Origin: Lytechinus variegatus | Lineage: Eukaryota > Echinodermata > Echinoidea > Temnopleuroida > Toxopneustidae | NCBI RefSeq assembly: GCF_018143015.1 | Contig: NC_054741.1 | Span: 8,892,683 to 8,956,682 of the forward strand | Direction of reading: 5' to 3' | DNA length: 64,000 bases | Part shown: one piece after another, positions 42,501-51,500 of the stretch | Layout: each line of letters begins with the position of its first letter | Position numbering within the stretch: the stretch's first letter is position 1 | Translations under genes and position numbers: made by a program | The notes under the pieces: model-generated | Databases searched by the model: none | Told to the model about the DNA's origin: nothing | The model's input: the letters and a program-made list of their open reading frames with translations, nothing else

Positions 42501-45500
42501 TAAACTTGCGATCGTGAATTTTGTATCCAATGAACAACGTCGTTTCGTCAATAGGAATTGTGATTTTAAACATAAATTGCAGAGAATTCTTTATCCTTTT
42601 CCAAAAATCAGCAACAGGATTACATTCTAACATAATATGAACAAAAGTTTCGTCTGCTTCACAAAACATACAAGATGTGTCATTAGCTAATTTCCAGCGT
42701 CATAAATTGTATTTAAAGGGTAATAAATTATGAAGAATTTTCAAGTTGTATTGTCGAATCATGTTATACTTTAAATACTTAAGTTTGAAATTAAAAACAT
42801 TTTGCCATTCAAAGTTTACTGGTAATCCTAATTTGGATTGCCAGTATTGTATAATATGTGGATCGGATTTTTTGGGGGTTACAAGTAAAACATAAAAATC
42901 TTTTGATTTCATATTCTTTAAATTTACAATATCTCCTCCACTAATTTCGAAAAGATCTTCTGGAAGCTTTGGAGATAAGGTGTCACATTTGTCAGTCCAT
43001 TCAGCTGGGACAGCTCTTTTTAGCTTTGAATATTCAAACTCGACTAAAAGAGATTTACATGCTACTATTTCAAAAATTTCTTCGGAAGGTTTCCAGGCAT
43101 GATTACGTAATAATTGGTGAACATAAAATATATTGTGGTCGAACCACCTGTTGAAATATAAAAGGTTTCTTTCAAATTTTATATGACTGTTATACCATAA
43201 AATTTCGTGTTTTATACTATTAATATTGTGATAGTCAGTAAATCGTATGTCATACCATGAACATAATAGATCTGTATAAAAGGATGGAATTTGCTTTTTC
43301 ATACATACAATTACCATATCTTTTTTCAAACAATTGAAACGGAGACACAATGGCATCTGTCCTATCTTTTCTATCCAAAATTTAAACAAGTACATCCATG
43401 GTTGACCATCGTATTTTAAATATTTTGAAATCCAGGAAACTTTTAATGAAGATAATTTTGAATTCATGTCTATCATATCTAATCCTAGTAGTATAAGGAT
43501 GTCTATGATGTCATGACGTCATGAAGCCACGCCCCCAATCCCTGACGTCACGAAGTGACGTCATGTTTATGACACCATAGAGGGGCGATATTGCGAAAGG
43601 GTAGGGTAGACATGCCTGGACGGGAAGGGGTATATGACACCATAGAGGGGCGATATTGCGAAAGGGTAGGGTAGACATGCCTGGACGGGAAGGGCTATAA
43701 ATAATGTATTACAATAAGAGGGTAAATTTAGCATGCAAGAAAGCTGTCTTTATAAAGAGGGGGAGAACACCATCGTTTTATACATTCATTCAGCAACATA
43801 CACGACAGCGTACGAATATAATTACGGCTGAGCCAGAGAACTCTCAAGATGTCTCCAAAAACTGTCGAAAAAGAAGACCAGGAATGGTGTCAAATATTCC
43901 AGAACCAGGTGGAGAAGGCAGACCTGCTCTTGGTCATCGAATACATAACGATCGTGGAAGTATTCAGGGACCTGGCAAAATATCCCAGCACGTGGATAGA
44001 AGACATGGTCAAGGACAATCCTCAACTGAAAGTTCACCAGGTTGTAGAATACCTGGAGCCTCAAAAGGTGGCTCAATATTACCCTCATGTTGCGAGAGTA
44101 ATGTGGTTGAAACCAGAGCTGATGGATCCCTGCCTCTTCACAGAGTCAGGTATTGACGACTTTATACGGGCAGAAAAGGATTAAAACTCGGGGATCCGTT
44201 GAATTGGTCCCTAAGATTATCCTTGTATGAAAAGAAATAACGGTGCAAGCCTAATAAACACCGCTCTTTTCTTAATTCCCCTTGAAATTGAATTGTGTTC
44301 TAAGATTATCCTTTTGGTCCCTAAGATTAATTAGGACCCACTTCAAAGAGGCAGGGTTTTCCTAAGAACAATATGAACTCCAAACCTATTAATATTTAAA
44401 TTTGTTCCCAAGATTCGGACGAACTTGTCTCAAACTTTGTTAGGTTTATAGAACCCTTGCTTGGTTGCCTTTCCGTATTAAGCATCTATAGGCCTGGATT
44501 TGATTGTTTACCTCGTTGGGTTTCATGCGAATGTTGGTATGAAGAGTATCGTATCCATCAACGATCGATATTTTCTGAATGATAGGACAAGAATGGCGAA
44601 AAGCAATGGGTGAAGTTATAGAGGGCGGAGGAAAAATAGCAATTCATTCGTCAGTATCGTCATTTGGTTATTTTCTTCATTTTGATAATTCTGTCATTTC
44701 CTCATTATTTGTTGTTCTGCCATTTGCCAATCTGTCAATTATTCATTTTCTCGTGCTGCATTTCATCATTCCATCCTCTACTAAAGTACATTATTGGGAA
44801 AGGGACATATTTGGGACAAGCATCCTTCTCTTCATCATTGCACAATTCGTCATACATGCCATCTTGTCTGTGTTATTTCGAAGCCATCGTTTTATATTTC
44901 GTTTCGTCATGCCGATCAGGCTATTGTTCATTTTCTCGTTCTGTCATTCGGTCATTCCGCCATTTCGTCGTTCAAATCGGCGTCAACGGCGTTGTTTCGT
45001 TACTAACTTCCGATAATAGTTTCATCGAAAAAAAAAACATAAGAAAAAAACTAGATGTTCATAATGTGTATATACAATGATTTTTCATCTTCTACTCACT
45101 ACTTATAATCATGTTCATATGTGCCAGATGAAACAACTATTAAAATGTCATAATATTGGAAGAAATATTCTCTCACCCCACGATCGACACTCGTGTCAAC
45201 GATTTAACCAAAACAACATTGCTGCCTCGTGACGTTCACACCGATTTTTATACCGAAATCTCCAATTATGGTCATGACACCATTATCTCATATCGTTTCA
45301 CCATTTTGTCATTTGGACATTTTTATTTTATAGCAATGTCGTCCTTTAACCCCCTCATCATTTTACCTCTTTCACCATTTTCTTCATTTTCACATATCAC
45401 CAGTCATCATTCGCAAGATCGTGTTTCCTTCCACTCCATCTAGACAAAGTTCAAGAATGAATCGCCACGTATATTTTTGGTCTCTCTATGACAACCAACA

Positions 45501-48500
45501 TAGGTAAAGCACCATGGGGAAAGTTGGCTAAATATAATGAAGAAATTATGAAACACATACAATGCACAAACACCAAGAAACAGAAATCTGGGATAAACTT
45601 TGTTTTTTATTACTTTTTATTACACAGAACACAATGGCATTCACAAGTAAAATGGTATTGTAAAGGGGTTCCAGACACGTGTCAGTTAATTTAATAAATA
45701 TGCATTTCAGAACGGACTCAACATATAGATTCCGTACAAAATCAATAAATGCAGTATTTTAGTTATGAATTTCTTCGGTTCCTTCCATCTCATCATCATT
45801 ATCATCATCATTATCCTCTTCAGCTTGATATTGGAATAATCCATCGAACTTGGTTCCTTGTCTTGCTATGACTCGTTGTACTGCTTTCCGTACGTTCATG
45901 CCACTTTCTACTTTTTCCGAGAGATTAGAAATTATTTCCTGATTTGTGTCGTCTTCTTCGAGGTACAAACTTTGTCGCAAAAAATTAGAATAGCGGTCGA
46001 AAAAGATCCGTTTGACGGCCCACAGAACTTTCACATGAGCCTTTTCTTTGGCTTCTTCATCACTCATGCCCTTAGAGATGTATTTGTCGTACTTTTCAAT
46101 CCTCAATTGCTCGGTAGCTGCCATCGCCTCTGCGTACCATTCTTGATAAGCTAGGTTGTCTGCTGGGTCGTCCATGTCAGGTGTCTCTGAATTAGAAGAT
46201 TCGTCGTCCTCTGTATCATCATCTCTTTCTGAATGACTCGTTTCTACTCCCTCCTCATCACTATGACTGTCTCCGTTGTTGGAATCTTTATCCTCGTATT
46301 CATTTTCAGCATGTTCACAAGCATTGTCCATTTCAGGGTGTGCATTTTGTTGGTGCCTTTTCATGTCATATTTACGACTATACGTTCTATGGCATAGTGA
46401 ACAGCTGTAGCGCTTCGATATATCGAGGTTATTCATCCTGTTGACTTGATGGCTCCTAGCTCGCAAAATGAAAAGAAATGTCTGAATCTGTCCTTTTTGT
46501 ATTGTTTGCAATTTCGTCTATGATGTCGCATGCAAATAGGCTACAACATTGCAATACGAAAGTGTATAACGCCGTTGCCGGCGCCGCTACGGGATATTGG
46601 TTTACTGAACGCCGCTGGCGCCGAATTGAACGACGAAATGACGGAATGACCGAATGACAGAGTGAGAAAATGTTTAGCCTGATCGGCAATTTATCAAAAT
46701 GACGAAAAGATACATAAAAAAATAAAAACTTTCGGAAAGCAGTACAACGAGTCATAGCAAGACAAGGAACCAAGTTCGATGGATTATTCCAATATCAAGC
46801 TGAAGAGGAGGATAATGATGATGATAGTGATGATGAGATGGAAGGAACCGAAGAAATTCATAACTAAAATACTGCATTTATTGATTTTGTACGGAATCTA
46901 TATGTTGAGTCCGTTCTGAAATGCATATTCATTAAATTAACTGACACGTGTCTGGAACCCCTTTACAATACCATTTTACTTGTGAATGCCATTGTGTTCT
47001 GTGTAATAAAAAGTAATAAAAAACAAAGTTTATCCCAGATTTCTGTTTCTTGGTGTTTGTGCATTGTATGTGTTTCATAATTTCTTCATTATATTTAGCC
47101 AACTTTCCCCATGGTGCTTTACCTATGTTGGTTGTCATAGAGAGACCAAAAATATACGTGGCGATTCATTCTTGAACTTTGTCTAGATGGAGTGGAAGGA
47201 AACACGATCTTGCGAATGATGACTGGTGATATGTGAAAATGAAGAAAATGGTGAAAGAGGTAAAATGATGAGGGGGTTAAAGGACGACATTGCTATAAAA
47301 TAAAAATGTCCAAATGACAAAATGGTGAAACGATATGAGATAATGGTGTCATGACCATAATTGGAGATTTCGGTATAAAAATCGGTGTGAACGTCACGAG
47401 GCAGCAATGTTGTTTTGGTTAAATCGTTGACACGAGTGTCGATCGTGGGGTGAGAGAATATTTCTTCCAATATTATGACATTTTAATAGTTGTTTCATCT
47501 GGCACATATGAACATGATTATAAGTAGTGAGTAGAAGATGAAAAATCATTGTATATACACATTATGAACATCTATTTTTTTCTTATGTTTTTTTTTTTAT
47601 TTTCGATGAAACTATTATGGGAAGTTTTAGTAACGAAACAACGCCGTTGACGCCGATTTGAACGACGAAATGGCGGAATGACCGAATGACAGAACGAGAA
47701 AATGAACAATAGCCTGATCGGCATGACGAAACGAAATATAAAACGATGGCTTCGAAATAACACAGACAAGATGGCATGTATGACGAATTGTGCAATGATG
47801 AAGAGAAGGATGCTTGTCCCAAATATGTCCCTTTCCCAATAATGTACTTTAGTAGAGGATGGAATGATGAAATGCAGCACGAGAAAATGAATAATTGACA
47901 GATTGGCAAATGGCAGAACAACAAATAATGAGGAAATGACAGAATTATCAAAATGAAGAAAATAACCAAATGACGATACTGACGAATGAATTGCTATTTT
48001 TCCTCCGCCCTCTATAACTTCACCCATTGCTTTTCGCCATTCTTGTCCTATCATTCAGAAAATATCGATCGTTGATGGATACGATACTCTTCATACCAAC
48101 ATTCGCATGAAACCCAACGAGGTAAACAATCAAATCCAGGCCTATAGATGCTTAATACGGAAAGGCAACCAAGCAAGGGTTCTATAAACCTAACAAAGTT
48201 TGAGACAAGTTCGTCCGAATCTTGGGAACAAATTTAAATATTAATAGGTTTGGAGTTCATATTGTTCTTAGGAAAACCCTGCCTCTTTGAAGTGGGTCCT
48301 AATTAATCTTAGGGACCAAAAGGATAATCTTAGAACACAATTCAATTTCAAGGGGAATTAAGAAAAGAGCGGTGTTTATTAGGCTTGCACCGTTATTTCT
48401 TTTCATACAAGGATAATCTTAGGGACCAATTCAACGGATCCCCGAGTTTTAATCCTTTTCTGCCCGTATAAAGTCGTCAATACCTGACTCTGTGAAGAGG

Positions 48501-51500
48501 CAGGGATCCATCAGCTCTGGTTTCAACCACATTACTCTCGCAACATGAGAGTAATATTGAGCCACCTTTTGAGGCTCCAGGTATTCTACAACCTGGTGAA
48601 CTTTCAGTTGAGGATTGTCCTTGACCATGTCTTCTATCCACGTGCTGGGATATTTTGCCAGGTCCCTGAATACTTCCACGATCGTTATGTATTCGATGAC
48701 CAAGAGCAGGTCTGCCTTCTCCACCTGGTTCTGGAATATTTGACACCATTCCTGGTCTTCTTTTTCGACAGTTTTTGGAGACATCTTGAGAGTTCTCTGG
48801 CTCAGCCGTAATTATATTCGTACGCTGTCGTGTATGTTGCTGAATGAATGTATAAAACGATGGTGTTCTCCCCCTCTTTATAAAGACAGCTTTCTTGCAT
48901 GCTAAATTTACCCTCTTATTGTAATACATTATTTATAGCCCTTCCCGTCCAGGCATGTCTACCCTACCCTTTCGCAATATCGCCCCTCTATGGTGTCATA
49001 TACCCCTTCCCGTCCAGGCATGTCTACCCTACCCTTTCGCAATATCGCCCCTCTATGGTGTCATAAACATGACGTCACTTCGTGACGTCAGGGATTGGGG
49101 GCGTGGCTTACACATGACGTCACTTCGTGACGTCATGCTGGGGGCGTGGCTTCATGACGTCACTTCGTGACGTCATCGTCCATAAATGGACGATGACGTC
49201 ATGACATCATAGACATCCTTATACTACTAATCCTCCTTTATGAAATTAATTAATACAAACATTTCGTTTTATCTTTTCTTTTTTCGAGCCCCAAATAAAC
49301 GTATACATCATTTTCTCTAATTCACGTACCAGGTTGTTTGGTACGTGTATTACAGTTGCAGGGTAAACAATTTGTGATATTATCAAAGGTTTAAGTATTA
49401 CTCTTTTGCCATGTATAGTTAAATTTCTCATTTTCAAGATGTTCGTTATAGATTGAATTTTAACTAACTTTGTATCCCAATTCGTTCTTTCTTTTTTAGG
49501 TTTATCTGTACCTACAAAAATTCCAAGGTATTTCACTGGATCATTTGTCCATTGTATATCTCTTAATGTTTCATCTTGAGGGAAGATGGACATTGCATGA
49601 GTTTAGGGCCTGCAATTTCTCCAAATTGCTTTATATCTTCTATCGCAATATTACCAGAATTAACAGAACTCACAAAACTTACTGCATCAGCAAGCTGTGC
49701 TATTTTGATTTCTTTTTCTGAACACTGGGTTCCATTTTCTCCTGGAATAATGATTCCTTCAATATTATCGTTTTGTTTTATTTTCCTTGCCATAACATCA
49801 GCAATTATTAAAAACAGTAAGGCTGAGAGTGGGCAGCCTTGTCTTACACCCTGTTCTATTTTGAAATTTTGTGACATCCAACCGTTATTAATCACTCTTC
49901 CGAAGGATCATTATACAAAACTTTAATGCAGTTGATAAGTGAATCTTTGAATTTTAATTTACGTAATTACTGAAATAAAAATTGATGGTTAACATTATCA
50001 AAAGCTTTTTTGAAATCTAAAAAAATGAAATAACCTGGAAGATTTAGGTGCGAACAAAGATCAGTTGAAGATGTAACATCTTCAACTAAACGAACATTTT
50101 CTGAAGCTGAACGGAATTTGAGATAACCAGTTTGATCCATAGAAATTATTTTGTCGATAACACGTTGAATTAAGACGTGAGCAAATGACTTTGGCTGCAA
50201 TTTTGTAATCGATGTTTAGAAGTGATATAGGACGCCAATTGTCAAGTAAACCTCTATCACCTTTTTTATGTAACAATATTAAAATACCTTGCTTTTGAGA
50301 TTCTGACAACTTATTCTTTCTGTAGCCTTCATTCAAACTATTGATAACCGTATATTTTATAACTTGCCAAAAACATTGATAAAACTCTGCTGATAGTCCG
50401 TCACTACCTGGAGTCTTGTTACCTTTCATTGACTTCAATGCTTTGTAACATTCGGATTCTGTAAGTAAACCTTCGCAAAGGTCAGCTTCTTCTTCCGACA
50501 GGGTAGTAAACTCAACATCATTCAAATAATCATATATTTGTGGTACAAGAACATTATTCTTATTTGAATATAGATTTTAGTAGTATTCATAGATTTCTTT
50601 TAAAATGGCTTCTTCATCAAAAATGACATCTTTTTCCCGTTTCAAAAGTCTAGATGTTTCTTTATACCGTTCCTTTTTTCCAAGATGAGAAAATATTTTG
50701 ATGATTTTTCGCCTTCTTCCATCCATTTTTCACGGGATCTCACAAGGCACCTTTACATTTATCTTCAATTAATTTATCAATCTGCTTAGTAACATCGTTA
50801 AGTTCAGTAAGATTATTGTCACTCGGGTGAGCATCATTTGCTTTCGAAAGGATTTCAAGTTTACTTTGCAAGATATGATATATTTGGTTTCTTTCCTTCT
50901 GTATTGTCTTTGAGTATTTTATTGAATATTCTTTGATCTTAATCTTGCATAATCCCATAACATTTGATCATTATAGTTTTTATATTATAGTTTTACTTTC
51001 CTTATGATATTTCTGATTGTTTGTTTAAATATGTCATCTCTAAGAAGTGAGTTGTTAAATTTCCATACACCCTTACCCTTGACTGAAGATGAAATTGTAA
51101 GTTTTAAGGACACAGCATTGTGATCACATTTCAGAATGGGTCTTAATTCTGCGGAATGTACAAATGAACATAAATCATATGAAATCAACCAATAGTCTAA
51201 TCGGGAGTAATAACCAAGTAACTATTGCCGCTAAGTAAATTGTTTTAGTGAAGGGTGACATTTTCTCCAGATGTCTACTAAGTTCAACTTTTTACATATA
51301 TTTTGCAACAGGTCATTAGGTTTATATGCATAACTAATACCCTGGGTGTCCATACATGAACTTTGAACTGAATTCCAGTCTCCACCCAACAATAACAAAT
51401 CATCTTTATGTACGTGTGCTTTCAGCCATGAGAGTAAACCTCTGAAAAAAATAGACATTTTAAATGATTTTGTCGGAGCATAAACATTTACAATGAAATA

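Follow-up and report, generated by a model that had tools for sequence, protein, structure and literature searches.

Symmetric defective adenovirus genomes of the Ad12 SYREC type are palindromes of a protein-primed linear replicon, in which a foreign centre is flanked on each side by the same viral end, and are laboratory by-products. Foldback (TU-like) transposons have long, modular inverted repeats and duplicate 8 bp at the insertion site. Polintons (Mavericks, polintoviruses) are 15-25 kb long, replicate by a protein-primed polymerase of their own and insert by a retroviral-type integrase that they also encode, according to an excerpt of PMC6431247. Transpovirons and virophages are small satellites of giant viruses that depend on the larger element, and transpovirons carry a stand-alone zinc-ribbon gene, according to an excerpt of PMC3671162. 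Here we describe an element of 5,742 bp, positions 43487-49228 of a 64,000-nt stretch of the genome of the sea urchin Lytechinus variegatus (NC_054741.1, positions 8,892,683 to 8,956,682, forward strand; hereafter the window), which can be compared with all of these. We consider it quite probable that this near-palindrome is one integrated copy of a palindromic, non-autonomous, helper-dependent lineage of Polinton satellites, which has a conserved gene of its own and ends borrowed from different Polintons.

The element is like a Polinton in its ends, its terminal inverted repeats (TIRs), its 6-bp target duplication and its left-end gene, whereas it is unlike one in being only 5.7 kb long and palindromic, in having no family B polymerase (PolB) or integrase match, and in carrying a zinc-finger gene that is absent from 11 end pairs enclosing both PolB and integrase. 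Without a match to either enzyme, it is, as far as its sequence can tell, not an autonomous Polinton. Like transpovirons and virophages it is small and would depend on a larger element; however, no gene homologous to theirs was found, the helper would be a Polinton, and the element is palindromic and integrated in a eukaryotic genome. It differs from the Ad12 SYREC genomes in that its lineage is diverse, is inserted in a genome and carries a gene under selection, and from foldback transposons, with which it has long modular inverted repeats in common, in its 6-bp duplication and in sharing its ends with PolB-bearing elements. No description of palindromic or zinc-finger-bearing Polinton satellites is present among the titles and abstract beginnings listed in the open literature; Repbase and the subscription journals are outside this scope, and an entry may exist there.

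An earlier note, written from the letters of the window alone, had described an inverted-repeat element at this place, and its description of the anatomy was borne out. The element begins with AGTAGTATAAGG, ends with the complement of this sequence and is flanked by a perfect 6-bp duplication, AATCCT (43481-43486 and 49229-49234). The inverted arms make up 83% of its length (about 85% in the earlier note) and are 99.1% identical; judged by this likeness, the element is young. The arms pair at 43486-43522/49193-49229 (100% identity), 43524-45006/47627-49109 (1,483 nt, 100% after rounding) and 45028-45821/46805-47598 (794 nt, 99%), and are unlike in the outermost ~100 bp, where the right end has additional copies of a ~20-bp repeat. 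The innermost arms are separated by 830 unpaired nucleotides (45897-46726), which would form the loop of a hairpin. Two genes stand out among the open reading frames (ORFs) of the element. The first, of 111 codons, is present in each arm together with a TATA box and a poly(A) signal: the left copy (43849-44184, plus strand) is accompanied by TATAAATA at 43696-43703 and AATAAA at 44253-44258, both on the plus strand, and the right copy (48449-48784, minus strand) by their mirror copies at 48930-48937 and 48375-48380. The two predicted products differ by one residue. Encoding a 225-residue protein with a C2H2 zinc finger, the second gene spans the centre (45759-46436, minus strand). Its finger-encoding 5' part is in the unpaired centre and its last codons are inside the left arm, so that a mirror remnant of its 3' end (codons 181-225) is found in the opposite arm (46727-46864, plus strand). 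The left inner arm (44667-45850), of which the right inner arm (46773-47966) is the mirror, is common to other palindromes with the zinc-finger gene.

The flanks at 42700-43476 and 49246-49877 resemble the reverse-transcriptase frame of a long interspersed nuclear element (LINE) on the minus strand, as judged by eye from the ORFs, and this frame is in register, with one stop codon between, once the element and one copy of the duplication are removed. A 320-nt query that joins the two flanks, representing the empty site, gave 20 near-full-length uninterrupted matches in the genome with 86-97% identity, and three further partial matches that likewise cross the site with nothing inserted (best 40 of 48 candidates scored). 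These uninterrupted LINE copies show that a unit of exactly 43487-49228 was inserted with a 6-bp duplication. Palindromes are a known assembly hazard, and the two halves could in principle have been wrongly joined; however, the exact target duplication, the uninterrupted LINE copies at the site, the unequal sequence and length of the arms, and the presence of other palindromes and of 28 end pairs with the zinc-finger gene (described below) reduce the chance of such an artefact to practically nothing. Other palindromes of this kind carry 6-bp duplications of their own. Both flanks were read for 19 elements, one of which (C8:1.06 Mb) was excluded because its left end was not recognised; the duplication was exact in 14 of the remaining 18, matched at five of six bases in three (one of the long C5 elements described below, L052 and an element on C18) and was lacking in one (C1:14.11 Mb).

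The earlier note had compared the termini and the duplication length with those of Polintons. When the first 214 bases of the element were searched against the whole genome (870 Mb, 33 contigs), they matched the ends of five long elements (14-18 kb), located at C5:48210300-48227151, C5:9247164-9265127, C1:28517257-28533528, C13:22781393-22797978 and C9:18589889-18604051. All five have a PolB match (PF03175) and an integrase match, the latter interrupted by stops in the C1, C13 and C9 copies, and on this gene content they are Polintons. Full-length Polintons that share the termini, which the earlier note had proposed to look for, are therefore present in the genome. The pieces recognised in the C5:48.2 Mb Polinton are an end gene, an integrase with rve and chromodomain, the polymerase and, at the opposite end, a PC4-domain gene. 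No PF03175 match lies within our element in the whole-genome search (all 48 candidates scored), and no match to the C5 Polinton integrase was found there in the genome search (best 112 of 874 candidates scored), which for these two genes agrees with the earlier note, where no Polinton core gene had been visible. As regards packaging ATPase, protease and capsid genes, the ORFs of the element offer two prominent genes and two further arm ORFs that lack conservation.

Positions 57-345 of the element are 98.6-98.8% identical to both ends of the C5:48.2 Mb Polinton. The left TIR (43487-43831, plus strand; right TIR at 48884-49228, minus strand) is the counterpart of the TIR of the long C5 Polintons, and the similarity to the right end of the C5:48.2 Mb copy extends to approximately position 345, TATA box included. 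The outer arm is 98.6% identical to the C5 left end over the aligned 690 of 817 outer bases, and by this alignment the arm up to approximately position 660 is a copy of the left end of a C5 Polinton. The termini shared with autonomous copies of the same genome and the 6-bp duplication are both features of a non-autonomous Polinton derivative. In the C5:48.2 Mb Polinton the same leader precedes the left end gene and the right PC4 gene (transcriptional coactivator p15; L049:2861-3529, at C5:48.22 Mb, minus strand), and the two also have their promoter in common. The integrase and PolB pieces of the two C5 Polintons are 100% identical at the protein level, which suggests recent movement or duplication; the target duplication is exact in one and matches at five of six bases in the other.

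These ends bear on two other origins. A foldback element unrelated to Polintons is highly improbable, as the duplications are 6 bp and not 8 bp long and the sequence identity of the ends with PolB-bearing elements contradicts it. Foldback elements are reported from sea urchin (PMC4079207), and the long inverted repeats and the modular inner and outer parts would fit one. An independent palindromic transposon, with the zinc-finger protein as its recombinase or a part of it and with ends that are merely Polinton-like, would explain why elements with five different end types contain a conserved gene. No known catalytic family was found in the proteins of the element by family and structure look-ups, which leaves room for a novel enzyme. 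However, over hundreds of bases the ends hardly differ from those of particular Polintons, a duplication of 6 bp is consistent with a Polinton-type integrase, and paired ends also occur without a listed zinc-finger place, for example at C12:5505118-5507330, which has an exact 6-bp duplication. We therefore consider such a transposon very unlikely.

The 111-residue protein also leads to Polintons. Its residues 1-99 match the product of a 152-codon gene that PolB-bearing Polintons carry at their left end; the other 53 residues of that product are replaced by 12, and homologues with identity down to 46% are present at the ends of further PolB elements. The gene is, by this comparison, a C-terminally shortened Polinton end gene. 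In distant pairs the ratio of nonsynonymous to synonymous divergence (dN/dS) is 0.10-0.20, indicating that the family is a real gene; in close pairs the ratio is higher, namely 0.56-0.74 between the short elements and the C5 Polintons, with the replaced tail included, and 0.57, from three changes, for the end gene between the C1 and C13 Polintons. The protein has no match in Pfam, PHROGs or NCBIfam, and its best PDB row is at chance level (E 0.79). The earlier description of this protein as helical was not confirmed: its single-sequence model has a mean predicted local distance difference test score (pLDDT) of 46 and is too poor for the fold to be read. A distant homologue (28% identity), with one TGA, is present in a short stretch with both L061-type ends (C17:5254286-5257128) and in another beside a single such end (C17:4920880-4922420).

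The zinc-finger protein has one C2H2 finger (C12, C15, H28, H33), an acidic linker and a conserved C-terminal region. The finger gave a Pfam C2H2 match under the gathering score and a PDB match to the ADR1 finger (E 0.0087), and the protein probably binds DNA. Other weak family rows below the cut-off were not trusted, and the single-sequence model (mean pLDDT 53) is too poor for the fold to be read. A scan of IMG/VR with alignments of both proteins found no relative. The gene has at least 122 matches in the genome (best 150 of 364 candidates scored). Among the 16 sources examined, 12 contain an intact ORF (at least 85% of the length), and L031, L032, L055 and L062 have stops or breaks. The intact copies form three groups, between which protein identity is 50-68%, dN 0.19-0.36, dS 0.87-1.78 and dN/dS 0.18-0.25; the 84 invariant positions include C12, C15, H28, H33 and much of residues 93-205. 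The frame is whole in three of four L053-type elements tested and split in L064, and L046 and L047 retain only a 3' remnant. By these measures the gene is kept by purifying selection in some elements and lost from others. Two further ORFs of the arms, of 145 and 68 residues, were rejected as genes, since neither is whole in any of the four L053-type elements, where both are broken by stops or into pieces; both are nearly intact in L045, a close sister of the window element, and the 68-residue ORF also in L047. On C4 (23795462-23859273), four copies of the zinc-finger gene with one TAA each lie within 64 kb, probably owing to a local segmental duplication.

The relatives of the element range from nearly complete palindromes to elements with little symmetry. 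L053 has 75% of its length in arms that are 99.2% identical, L052 has 82% in arms that are 97.3% identical, and L062 and L063 are palindromic over their whole length (90.4% and 95.6%); all four contain the zinc-finger gene. L047, with only the remnant of this gene, has 72% in arms (99.5% identical). Symmetry is lower in L064, L054, L046 and L045 (55%, 47%, 43% and 17% in arms, respectively). L045 (C16:5363874-5370683) is a 97%-identical, non-palindromic sister of the window element, which on one side has Polinton right-end sequence together with the minisatellite of that end.

Five end types (that of the window and four more) were searched genome-wide and the ends were paired by script. This gave 53 end pairs. 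The zinc-finger gene is enclosed by 28 of them, which are 2.1-15.8 kb long and contain neither PolB nor integrase; PolB together with integrase is enclosed by 11, which are 14-40 kb long and contain no zinc-finger gene. No listed place of any of the three lies in 12 pairs, of which at least four hold weaker zinc-finger matches or remnants (C6:13.8, C8:30.5, C14:25.5 and C3:61.75 Mb), and two overlapping pairs on C17, of 36 and 41 kb, are dubious. Conversely, 33 of the 53 zinc-finger places scoring above 160 bits are inside a pair (one in a dubious pair). When 83 typed zinc-finger places were compared with 24 PolB places, none was within 187 kb; the remaining 39 zinc-finger rows adjoin listed ones, as judged by eye. 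Of the five end types, four, that of the window among them, are shared with PolB-bearing elements. The L053-type ends are 96-97% identical to those of PolB elements over 280-281 bp, the L063-type ends 76-95% in pieces, and the L061-type ends 85-86% over 232 bp, with one end near the C19:1.66 Mb PolB reaching 95% over 403 bp. By its 28 end pairs and the between-group dN/dS of 0.18-0.25, the zinc-finger-bearing set is a lineage of its own with its own conserved gene.

The earlier note had offered two readings, and each of them stands in part. It first proposed a non-autonomous Polinton that had kept two accessory genes; this applies to the 111-residue gene, the shortened end gene, whereas the zinc-finger gene occurs in none of the 11 PolB- and integrase-containing pairs, and so there is no sign here of its having been retained from a Polinton. 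The other proposal, a palindromic type apart, applies to the core with the zinc-finger gene. This core is found with at least five end types, of which four are also those of PolB-bearing elements. A rival explanation is that the palindromes arise recurrently from Polintons by deletion and inverted duplication, as by-products resembling defective genomes, and that the zinc-finger gene once belonged to Polintons but has disappeared from their present long copies. The outer arm, copied recently from a single Polinton end (98.6%), is what such an origin would give. The duplication of an end is also seen in a PolB element (C4:55679614-55694467), and the zinc-finger groups and PolB pieces diverge in one order. 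The interior is not accounted for by deletion from an autonomous element, given the absence of the zinc-finger gene from the 11 pairs; in addition, none of the 83 typed zinc-finger places is within 187 kb of any of the 24 PolB places, and the core survived exchanges of ends. On balance we regard recurrent derivation as unlikely. The C4 element itself has the end gene at both ends, and integrase sequence likewise, covering residues 1-365 on one side, split into two pieces, and 1-200 on the other, a layout that copying of one end onto the other would give.

The exchanges of ends are visible in a comparison of the window element with L047. Their inner arms are 95-98% identical. The outer arms of L047, however, are of the C13 Polinton type (92.7% identity over 682 of 840 nt) and those of the window element of the C5 type, and the outer arms of the two elements are 86-87% identical over the alignable part. 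Similarly, dS of the zinc-finger gene between the window and L053 types is 0.12-0.14, compared with 0.82-0.84 for the PolB piece of the matching Polintons. Low divergence of the zinc-finger gene, high divergence of PolB and shared inner arms indicate that cores moved between end types after the Polintons had split. Over larger distances the ranking is the same for both genes: compared with the window type, the L053, L061 and L063 types have identities of 91, 66 and 53% in the zinc-finger protein and, in the PolB pieces of the matching Polintons, of 90, 65-68 and 46%. With four lineages, this parallel is only suggestive of satellites tracking their helpers.

The arms were compared in a tree of 14 arm segments obtained with a 627-nt query. 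Window-type and L053-type arms were separated with a support of 1.0, and on either side arm identity was 96-100% within a subfamily, compared with 81-84% between the two. Both subfamilies have a mirrored 3' remnant of the zinc-finger gene at a nearly equal place (codons 181-225 and 196-224), so the palindrome is probably ancestral and its arms have been kept alike since.

For the satellite lineage that we favour, the following mechanism can be proposed. The integrase and the protein-primed PolB of a matching Polinton would recognise the borrowed ends and, acting in trans, would replicate the element and insert it. Strand displacement during protein-primed synthesis would free single strands, and a strand with complementary ends could fold back; snap-back or panhandle priming would then copy one end onto the other and create a palindrome. 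Later rounds of replication through the hairpin would renew the arms and keep them alike. The zinc-finger protein would bind DNA, most plausibly the shared ends or the promoters in the TIRs, and in this way might favour the satellite or control the helper; this is the most conjectural step.

Several observations weigh against this interpretation. Within groups, dN/dS of the zinc-finger gene is uneven, ranging from 0 to 1.0 with few changes, and all dN/dS values for this gene come from intact copies only. Of the 53 strong zinc-finger places, as many as 15 belong to none of the five end types and another 5 are near one end only, and the L062 end type found no PolB-bearing partner in the genome search with its ends. 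The absences reported above hold at the sensitivity of searches in which the best 150 of 364 zinc-finger and the best 112 of 874 integrase candidates were scored. The likeness of arms is also not universal: those of L054 are 92.5% alike, which is below its 95% identity to a sister element, those of L046 are 80% alike, and the close sister L045 is only 17% covered. Within the L053 type, the two arms of one element are each other's closest relatives only in L053 and L055, and not in L052 and L064. Repeated fresh formation of palindromes may have occurred instead of steady copying between arms.

Beyond this single copy, we tentatively suggest, with rather less confidence than we attach to the nature of the element itself, that a long-lived class of satellites exists: hairpin-type palindromes that parasitise several Polinton lineages, swap ends to follow their helpers, carry one selected zinc-finger regulator and maintain their symmetry by arm-to-arm copying during protein-primed replication. 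To our knowledge, most non-autonomous DNA transposons lack genes that are peculiar to them; a palindrome that has the ends of several Polinton lineages and also a gene under selection would be a satellite with its own identity. If this is true, such satellites would stand in the same relation to Polintons as virophages and transpovirons do to giant viruses. It would become testable whether Polinton enzymes act in trans, in what way palindromes are made and kept by linear replicons with protein-primed replication, and whether virus-like transposons are held in check by satellites. Fresh palindromes and exchanges of ends would also record replication events, providing a way to spot Polinton activity.

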